Source: Spinellus fusiger
Taxonomy: Eukaryota > Mucoromycota > Mucoromycetes > Mucorales > Phycomycetaceae
Direction of reading: 5' to 3'
DNA: 64,000 bases
NCBI GenBank assembly: GCA_025094145.1
Contig: JALLLS010000050.1
Coordinates: 124,001-188,000 of the forward strand
Shown here: in pieces, positions 32,994 to 62,206 of the stretch
Layout: the number at the start of each line of letters is the position of its first letter
Position numbering within the stretch: position 1 is the stretch's first letter
Translations under genes and position numbers: made by a program
The notes under the pieces: generated by a model
Told to the model about the DNA's origin: nothing
Database searches by the model: none
Seen by the model: the letters and a program-made list of their open reading frames with translations, nothing else

Positions 32994-33119
32994 AGAAGAA
33001 GAAAAAGGAAAGAAAAAGGGCAGTGATGAAGAGAGTAAGATAGACAGGGGAAGAGGGGAGATCAAGTGTGACTGCTTAAAAGAGAGAGATGATCTGAGAT
33101 TCAATAAAGATGCATTTAT

Positions 33120-34505
33120 TACACACCAGGAGATCTTTAGGATATAAAAGGAAATAATCGAAATATAATTGTTTAAGAAATGACAAGTCGATTTGAAAAG
33201 GAGCAAAAATAAATTAAGATATATTCATGTTAGTTTTTAAATAATAATAATAATAATTCACTTGTAAATATCTGAATCCCGAAGGAAACCACTTTCGATG
33301 TGGCGATATATAATATGAATACGAATAAGAATATCTATTTTTTTCTACAGAATGGAACTGGTCGGTGGCGACCATTTAAACACTCTTCTGCAATTGTATA
33401 GATATTCTTTGATGCATTCACATCTCTGTTCCAAACAATTCCACAACTTTGGCAAGCGCGGATATTGTTGAAATTCACTAATACTTCAGTGAGGCTGTCT
33501 GTGTTGCAAGTATGGCAGATCTTGAGAACAAAAATAAGAGTAACTGTTAGAAGAGCTTTTCATATTGGGTAAGAGGTCAATCATGTTTACTATTGATGTT
33601 CCGAACTCATCGACATCAACCATAAGAAGATCTCCATCTTTTTGTCTCTTTTTTCAATGATTGATATAGAATTCTTGTCAAACCAACACAATGACCTTTA
33701 AATGTGGCAGCATCTTTTACCTTGATTCCTGTGCCATAAGCAACGACTGACAGCTTAGTAGGATCATAGTCTAATCCTTTTAGGTGCTGATACCCTTTTC
33801 AATAATAAAATAATAGTAAAAATAATGAGTTCGAGATGCATTAATATACTCTCTATGTATATCGTATTACCCTTGCACTGGCACCTTCTTCTTGCCTTTG
33901 TCTTTGTAACGGATTCACTGGGTTTATTAAAATAAAAGAATATACAATAGAAACTGACTAACATGTCAGACACAATAAACATACACAAACACTTACCAGA
34001 TCACAACAGTTGGTTTATATGACAAACAAAGGCAAACAAAATAAAAAGGATAGAAGTTATGAAGAACAACAGACAGTGTGTTTGGCAGGTATTAATATCC
34101 AAGTAGAAGAGAACAAAACAAAATTTCACAAGTCATTTGCTTAATCAGAACTACCAAAGTAATGCAGACTACAACAACATTTTAGAAAGAAAAAGAATTG
34201 CTTAAAGAACAGTTGCCTAGTTACTCACTGTGCTCAAATTGTGTGTTGTGTTCCTGTTCATGTACCCTCTTTGATTTCCCTAGATTAGCCATTGTACTAA
34301 TACTCTATTTTTCCTCACTGCTATAGACCAGACAACCACAAGTTCATCTCTCTAGTGGTCTTGTTGATAACTACAGTGCCCTTTATTACAGATACTTGCA
34401 AACCTTTTGATTTTTAAATACAGCCCCATAAAAGGCAAGACATTTTTAGACGTAAAAGGAAGGAGATATCCCCGCCTAAAAGTCAGAAAAATCTCCTGGT
34501 GTGTA
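33120..34505 (-). mobile_element. Fanzor-type (TnpB-like) element, family B
   Basis: The ends are inverted repeats of about 15 bp (tacacaccaggagat at 33120 and its reverse complement ending at 34505), starting with TA as in Tc1/mariner-type insertions. The minus strand codes for a broken Fanzor nuclease. Its first RuvC block is KLSVVAYGTG with TFKGHCVGL (33640-33760), then LMVDVDEFGTS (near 33605). The two zinc-ribbon pairs are ICHTC (near 33515) and ACQSCGIVW (near 33450). RuvC-III is WNRDVNASKN (near 33410), then EECLNGRHRPVPFC and a stop at 33335-33337. Frameshifts and stops separate these parts, so no intact protein is made. Fanzor proteins are RNA-guided DNA nucleases related to TnpB; the 200 bp after the stop is where a guide RNA would be expected by analogy. 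The 5' half (33.8-34.5 kb) is decayed. Confidence 0.85.
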
Positions 34506-61698: not shown

Positions 61699-62206
61699 TA
61701 CACACCAGGAGGTCTTTAGGATATAAAAGGAAATAATCGAAACACAATTGTTTAAGAAATGACACATCGATTTGAAAAGGAGCAAATAAAGTGAAATGTA
61801 TTCATGTTAGTTCTTAAATAAAGATTATTATTATAATTTACCTGTAGATATCTGAATCCCGGAGCAAACCACTTTCGATGTGGCGATATAATAAAATATG
61901 AATACGAATAAGAATATCTATGCTTCTCGACAGAATGGAGCTGGTCGGTGGCGACCCTTTAAACACTCTTCTGCAATTGTATAGATATTCTTATTCGTAT
62001 TCATATTTTATTATATCGCCACATCGAAAGTGGTTTGCTCCGGGATTCAGATATCTACAGGTAAATCTACATAGTTTTTATTTATTTAAAATCTAACATG
62101 AATACGTTTCAATATATTTTCACACCTTTTCAAATCGATGTGTCATTTCTTAAACAATTGTGTTTCGATTATTTCCTTTTATATCCTAAAGACCTCCTGG
62201 TGTGTA
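61699..62206. mobile_element. Foldback element made from a Fanzor family B 3' end
   Basis: 508 bp with arms of about 225 bp (61699-61921 and 61981-62206) that are reverse complements with scattered differences and a 59-nt centre. Both ends are TACACACCAGGAGGTC-type, the same as the Fanzor B ends at 33.1 and 34.5 kb. The left arm plus centre (61699-61992) is collinear with the 3' end of the Fanzor B element (33120-33396), including the C-terminal codons and stop of the nuclease gene (RHRPAPFCREA-stop in minus sense). The right arm is an inverted second copy. It has no coding capacity and would be mobile only if a transposase recognises the ends. Confidence 0.92.

Follow-up and report, generated by a model that had tools for sequence, protein, structure and literature searches.

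Repeated, mostly independent conversion of Fanzor transposon copies into palindromic foldbacks in the genome of Spinellus fusiger

Copies of a transposon that encodes Fanzor, a CRISPR-like nuclease, have been converted repeatedly into palindromes in the genome of Spinellus fusiger (assembly GCA_025094145.1). Across the whole assembly (38 Mb) we identified at least nine of these foldbacks: six small and two large ones carry two right ends of the element (RE-RE), and one carries two left ends (LE-LE). Their arms meet within short inverted repeats, their outer ends are exact to within one base in seven cases and overshoot the element in two, and their sequences indicate that most of them formed independently. 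The explanation we favour, with confidence somewhat above even, is that fold-back repair at a short inverted repeat overwrote one half of a Fanzor copy, in place, with an inverted duplicate of its other half.

Results

Anatomy of a foldback and its Fanzor relative

The window, a stretch of 64,000 nucleotides (contig JALLLS010000050.1, positions 124,001 to 188,000), holds one foldback, named C144, and one normal two-ended Fanzor copy, Fanzor B. Their features are listed below in window coordinates; n and c denote the non-coding and coding arms of the inverted repeat.

33120..34505, minus strand: Fanzor B, normal two-ended copy, with RE at 33120, LE at 34505 and terminal repeats of 15-19 bp
33327..33338, plus strand: n arm of the inverted repeat, normal copy
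33338..33559, minus strand: last Fanzor exon, matching PF07282 (Cas12f1-like TNB, zinc ribbon; E 1.8e-7)
33398..33409, plus strand: c arm of the inverted repeat, normal copy, within the Fanzor reading frame
61699..61921, plus strand: left arm of the foldback, a Fanzor RE read from its outer terminus inward and ending in AAGAATATCTAT
61699..61711, plus strand: left terminus, TACACACCAGGAG, its TA being either a target duplication or the repeat's own bases
61781..61836, plus strand (approximate limits): left-arm patch unlike the right arm, containing all differences between the arms
61910..61921, plus strand: 12-nt inverted repeat, n arm
61922..61980, minus strand: loop, the last codons of the Fanzor C-terminus and the stop region, in the order of the parent
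61981..61992, plus strand: 12-nt inverted repeat, c arm, the switch point
61981..62206, minus strand: right arm, an inverted RE copy
62067..62125, minus strand (approximate limits): matching patch of the right arm
62194..62206, minus strand: right terminus, inverted, CTCCTGGTGTGTA, next to bases unrelated to the left flank

The foldback is a palindrome of 508 bp (61699-62206), made of two RE arms joined at the 12-nt inverted repeat. Long inverted arms, of 223 and 226 bp, make up most of it, which is the structural mark of a foldback, and it aligns with its own reverse complement over 516 columns at 86.8% (E 4e-172). Both arms open with TACACACCAGGAGG. Arms and loop match the parent sequence from 33116 to 33409, C-terminal exon region included, at 89% (E 1e-109) and as far as the second 12-mer, identifying the element as a Fanzor derivative. 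The self- and parent alignments together bear out the earlier note, according to which the foldback is collinear with the parent through 61992 and then reads its left arm in reverse: past this point the parent continues TGATGCATTC, and the foldback reads ATTCGTATTCATA and onward through the reverse complement of its own left arm, out to the terminus. The order of the loop is that of the parent, which marks the left arm as the original one and the right arm as new.

The 12-nt repeat bridges the end of the Fanzor gene and the 3' non-coding end of the element. In the window, AAGAATATCTAT is found at 33327-33338 and 61910-61921 only, and ATAGATATTCTT at 33398-33409 and 61981-61992 only; the last exon of Fanzor B also contains the segment NRDVNASKNIYTIAEE. 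The inverted 12-mers that the earlier note described in the parent are thus real, but it had placed them slightly off, at 33326-33396; the spacer between them is 59 nt.

Fanzor B is probably shortened internally, because it is shorter than a 3.26-kb copy in L119. It is a diverged family member and is not among the closest copies to either arm of the foldback. It carries TA at both ends and short terminal repeats, two features that bear on its assignment to Fanzor1 and to a transposase superfamily. Its RE and LE have in common just TACACACCAGGAGAT (15 bp, or 19 with one mismatch). Terminal repeats of 220 bp, whose presence in a full-length parent would have spoken against the scheme of the earlier note, are absent from Fanzor B and from eight other complete copies (two each in L057, L119, L120 and L121). 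A parent with long terminal inverted repeats pre-dating the foldback is ruled out, since the terminal repeat of normal copies is 15-19 bp long.

The two arms of the foldback are identical over their outer 85 columns and in their inner part. Their 18 differences (15 substitutions and 3 gap runs) all fall inside one patch of 64 columns; a rough bound on the chance of as few as 14 substitutions in one such window is 1.2e-5. Within the patch, the closest copies to the right arm are L097 and L105, at 7 differences each, and the closest to the left arm are L017 and L060, at 1 each. To judge from these distances, one arm probably took the tract from another copy; the right-arm patch is perhaps a conversion tract of this kind, later than the foldback or simultaneous with it.

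Left of the foldback, the minus strand carries exons with a DUF4112 match (PF13430, 60870-61600). The foldback lies about 100 bp upstream of the inferred start codon of this gene, in its likely promoter. A piece 1.1 kb away (L001:3118-3495) resembles by eye a DDE_3 frame found near the C140 foldback, without a Pfam match.

Foldbacks across the genome

Searches with the RE gave 572 to 588 first-look candidates, of which 40 were scored each time. Five small foldbacks came from the first search and the sixth from a later one. Two genome-wide scans for exact inner-arm motifs facing each other (spacers of 106-166 and 46-105), which would miss diverged motifs, returned these six and no further ones. 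The large RE-RE foldbacks were traced through close outward-facing RE pairs, and the LE-LE foldback through the same reading of the LE list.

C144 (window), C140, C175, C13, C156, C15: small RE-RE foldbacks
C172: large RE-RE foldback; arms of 696 bp, 99.1% identical; the centre consists of a distinct related element that has ends of its own, TACACACC...GGTGTGTA
C167: large RE-RE foldback; arms of 1253 bp, 99.92% identical; a 1.5-kb loop; the arms meet at TAGCTA
C111: LE-LE foldback; arms of 201 bp, 99% identical; 311 bp between the arms

Arm identity is 97-100% in seven of the nine. As exact matches in the genome, two variants of a 32-base RE terminus occur 122 and 96 times, and one 33-base LE terminus 126 times; one 32-base RE terminus pattern had no match in the viral contigs. 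The termini inspected were 100 of 114 and 100 of 122 places for the RE and 100 of 126 for the LE, the last two sets being exact matches only, and foldbacks with wide loops are probably under-counted.

Several other elements were seen alongside. Downstream of the C140 foldback, at L002:2328-3497, is a DDE_3 transposase frame (E 4e-24), any action of which on these ends is conjectural. Related elements with TACACACCC- ends occur at L056:782-2009, in L118 from 2233 and in L039, and two are nested in Fanzor copies. Some short contigs are 100% identical to stretches of longer ones, over about 500 bp that take in 30 bp of flank (L057 in C131 and L100 in C104; L116 in C187 and L117 in C86); they are redundant contigs or alleles in the assembly.

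Junctions within inverted repeats

Each junction examined lies inside a short inverted repeat next to a loop, as expected of a hairpin, and the junctions fall in four different repeats of about 6 to 23 bp. In C140 and C13 the axis of symmetry is a 23-bp repeat of the GAATGCATCAAAGAATATCTAT type, in the window foldback its 12-bp form and in C175 a repeat of about 9 bp. In C156, the coding arm of one copy meets a second arm whose identity with another copy (C115:218802-219018) is 98%. The loop of C15 is shorter, and the n arm of this foldback matches c better than in its closest relatives. The junction of C172 is the 8-bp identity between the ends of its nested element; that of C167 spans about 6 bp, and the repeat of C111 reaches up to 15 bp. 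The strand switch at a 12-nt repeat proposed by the earlier note was therefore right in kind, the second arm being the inverted first arm joined within an inverted repeat, and the same outcome recurs at other repeats: the 23-bp, the 9-bp and the 6-bp ones, and the terminal repeat of the nested element.

Ordinary copies vary in the same region. Among 91 other ends, the longest perfect inverted match measures 22-27 bp in 14, 12-17 bp in 46 and less than 12 bp in 31, some of the shortest not being the n/c pair. The repeat is variable, and the 12-nt version is one of its forms. The earlier note had named copies with arms that differ at the proposed junction as a finding against its scheme, and across copies they do differ: both arms of C140 and C13 carry GAATGCATCAAAG, both arms of C175 carry GAATACAAATATC, and C156 has one of each. 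As a sequence pattern, this argues for separate origins over one dispersed element.

Separate origins of the foldbacks

The comparison took in 105 distinct RE arms, of which 14 belong to seven foldbacks (C144, C140, C175, C13, C156, C15 and C172) and 91 are others. C167 and C111 stand outside the arm tree as foldbacks, and L112, one of the 91, is an arm of C167. Over about 190 bp, the two arms of one foldback differ at 18 places in C144, 0 in C140, 2 in C175, 1 in C13, 16 in C156, 4 in C15 and 0 in C172. The closest other end is 6 differences away for C140, 14 for C175, 19 for C13 and 4 for C172; in all four the element's own second arm is the closest of all, and by these distances they appear as new arms on old copies. 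For C15, with its closest other end at 3, one arm is slightly closer to ordinary copies than to its partner, so it is uninformative on arm age. The two arms of C144 have different closest copies, as do those of C156.

On the tree of the 105 arms, the foldback label changes 9 times for 14 arms, against a mean of 13.5 when labels are shuffled (0 of 500 as low), because each element's own two arms pair up. At least three of the changes are forced by well-supported branches, at bootstrap values that had not settled. For a loop stretch of 57 nt, the closest sequence is an ordinary copy in all seven foldbacks (C13 is tied with C172, whose loop is ordinary); that of the window foldback is the same as in copy L024, at edit distance 0. 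All six small foldbacks have single-copy flanks. TA, a putative target duplication, stands at both element ends; a search with the joined flanks brought up no empty-site paralogue, and open reading frames across such joins were uninformative.

The arms and loops of the seven compared foldbacks derive from different Fanzor copies, and we saw among them no lineage of foldbacks that had multiplied. A single dispersed foldback is rejected for these seven by arm distances, tree and loops. The search for many dispersed copies with the same centre, proposed in the earlier note, ended at the six small foldbacks; its suggestion of a new symmetric element that could be mobilised in trans finds no support in the single-copy flanks, the loops or the mutual distances. 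The window foldback is one such accident, with no sign of spread.

Outer ends and flanks

Read outward from the terminus, the two flanks of a foldback have 0 or 1 base in common in seven of the nine. Beyond the RE of C167, 20 identical bases follow on both sides; those on the left cover the last codons and the stop of a host gene that encodes a CobW C-terminal domain (PF07683, E 5e-10), and the bases after it. C111 has 12 common bases beyond its LE (17 with one gap). Ten or more common bases occur in 0.024% of 4095 random flank pairs. Such an overshoot fits synthesis in place past the end of the element, and neither transposition of a finished foldback nor deletion between two insertions. Thus C167 and C111, at least, look copied in place by their flanking sequence. 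A decayed RE terminus (L127:52-86) lies just outside the left arm of C111; this site held more than one copy, so it is not simple.

How the foldbacks may have formed

We infer a break, a hairpin and a joining guided by the terminal repeats, with the element remaining at its parent's place. A break, perhaps made by the transposase, by the Fanzor nuclease or in replication, or else abortive gap repair, within the element would expose single-stranded DNA, whose 3' end could fold back and pair at a short inverted repeat (in the window, the 12-nt n/c pair). Synthesis would then copy the RE arm outward as far as the terminus, and the new strand would connect with the opposite side, in most cases by way of the 15-19 bp terminal repeat common to RE and LE. 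Joining at this repeat would leave an exact element end and two identical arms. The arms of C144 and C156, with their 18 and 16 differences, require a second template or a second event; another copy serving as template could give differing arms (C156) or a patch (window foldback). Comparable steps are described in yeast, where resection, a hairpin at inverted repeats near a break, extension and homology-mediated resolution follow one another (PMC7467729), and defective copies of the P superfamily have been ascribed to imperfect gap repair with template switching (PMC4168063).

Besides these arm differences and the empty-site search, which brought up no site with the two flanks contiguous, two observations weigh against fold-back repair. 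The exact ends of seven foldbacks would be explained by transposition or by loss of a centre without the extra terminal-repeat step, and near-identical inverted pairs lying close together, the substrate for such a loss, are common. Those measured are the following.

C131 (L057): outward inverted pair, 100% identical, 1.39 kb apart
C90 (L120): outward inverted pair, 100% identical, 0.5 kb apart
C125 (L121): outward inverted pair, 99.7% identical, 47 bp apart
C133 (L122): inward inverted pair, 100% identical over the 411 bp compared
C115 (L123/L124): inward inverted pair, 98.7% identical over 399 bp

It is possible, if rather improbable, that a copy hopped nearby in inverted orientation (RE-LE...LE-RE) and that the resulting unstable palindrome then underwent a central deletion between c of one copy and the inverted n of the other, which are short direct repeats, leaving RE-n-loop-c-RE. 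Close inverted pairs are mostly near-identical: besides the three outward pairs above, the arms of C172 and C167 are so, against 96.5% for the outward pair C116, and the inward pairs contrast with a second C115 pair at 87.5%. Two tandem pairs (C114, C115) reach just 88-89%, and random pairs of other ends attain 98% in 0.66% of 3916. Loss of a centre also yields exact ends on both sides, and arms of different origin as in C156, with no further step. It needs two events each time, however, and the 20 and 12 common flank bases of C167 and C111 are not expected from two separate insertions.

In the near-identical inverted pairs of the family, the two copies lie between 47 bp and 1.8 kb from each other; the copies of the two tandem pairs examined are not alike. 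Local hopping would explain this, as would conversion between inverted copies; recombinational loss of identical tandem copies could explain why identity is kept in inverted pairs alone. Within 6 kb, 268 ends form 6 outward, 3 inward and 2 tandem pairs. A total of about 11 is expected, and the numbers are too small to show an excess of outward pairs. Two facing LE termini 1.4 kb apart (G000:C132:839670-841126) make another probable inverted pair.

Decidedly unlikely, in our judgement, is that the foldbacks were moved, once finished, as two-ended elements by a transposase acting in trans. Both outer ends of the RE-RE foldbacks are the terminus of mobile copies (of the TACACACCAG type, and TACAGACCAG in C13), and exactness to within one base in seven of the nine would suit such movement. 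Yet none of the seven compared is close to another (C167 and C111 being outside that comparison), and the two exact-motif scans, which would pass over more diverged copies, gave six small foldbacks in all. This contrasts with ordinary copies, for which near-identical relatives exist at other sites: L100, which has the sequence of an L057 copy, matches L096 at 99.1% over 437 bp.

There is very little to recommend one ancestral foldback that spread long ago, its descent hidden by later homogenization of the arms within each copy: the conversion-like patch in the window and the C15 n arm, changed to match c, would suit it, but loops are not expected to be homogenized by arm conversion and are closest to ordinary copies, the variants at the junction are not the same, and the centres of C172, C167 and C111 are of other kinds.

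A possible guide RNA at the duplicated end

By general expectation and published work (PMC10711439), the guide RNA of a Fanzor element would come from its right end. An RE-RE foldback would then have, speculatively, two outward-facing putative guide-RNA ends. We examined whether n/c pairs as a stem in 28 ends, including the C167 arm L112. The bases pair in 98.7% of cells, a share that falls to 16-60% once the partner is slid by 1 to 3 columns. It is, however, no higher than among-sequence shuffles give (311 of 500 reach it), conservation of the n-side stem columns does not exceed that of random non-coding blocks (4701 of 10114 do as well), and an Rfam search gave no match at the gathering threshold. 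With no sign of covariation, the n/c repeat as a conserved guide-RNA stem is unsupported, not refuted. We would put hardly any weight on the idea that Fanzor itself causes the foldbacks, its RNA-guided cuts or those of the transposase triggering fold-back repair, and the two outward guide-RNA ends perhaps targeting both flanks, so that the site and its repair would stay exposed to cuts on either side in a self-reinforcing two-guide state.

Discussion

Foldback and MITE-like derivatives are a known kind of element; what the present finding adds is that Fanzor copies have been turned into palindromes repeatedly and, for the most part, independently. MITEs are defined by amplification to many similar copies, and the TnpB-related palindromic MITEs of prokaryotes are included among them. 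The foldbacks resemble them in being short and non-coding, with inverted arms and transposon termini, but no amplification is seen here: the small ones recovered by the two exact-motif scans number six, and the seven compared are not closely related copies. Among the titles and abstract openings of open-licence literature, we found no report of palindromic Fanzor derivatives.

The Fanzor copies, candidate members of Fanzor1 or of the Mariner group, are like the Fanzor1 elements carried on Mariner-type transposons with TA targets (Bao and Jurka 2013, PMC3627910) in their PF07282 zinc-ribbon exon, short terminal repeats and TA ends; in the portion of that description available to us, RE-RE or LE-LE palindromic derivatives are not mentioned. 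The foldback-like Galileo transposons (PMC4168063) have long inverted arms, as here. Galileo is, however, a P-superfamily element described with long terminal repeats, whereas in the Fanzor family long arms are sporadic and normal copies have only their short ones.

The foldback inversions of Saccharomyces cerevisiae (PMC7467729) come closest: both are inverted duplications with a junction in a short inverted repeat, a loop and a second junction mediated by homology. Those of yeast are gross chromosomal rearrangements, genetically selected and largely from repair mutants, as that account presents them. The Fanzor foldbacks, in contrast, are natural and confined to single transposon copies, and their outer end lies mostly at the transposon terminus. 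They provide nine natural fold-back rearrangements in one transposon family of one genome, with stems of about 6 to 23 bp, most outer ends exact and two overshooting. The end that eight of them duplicate is where, going by published Fanzor work, the guide RNA is expected to be encoded. This series makes the birth of long terminal inverted repeats and of MITE-like palindromes directly testable by strain comparison.
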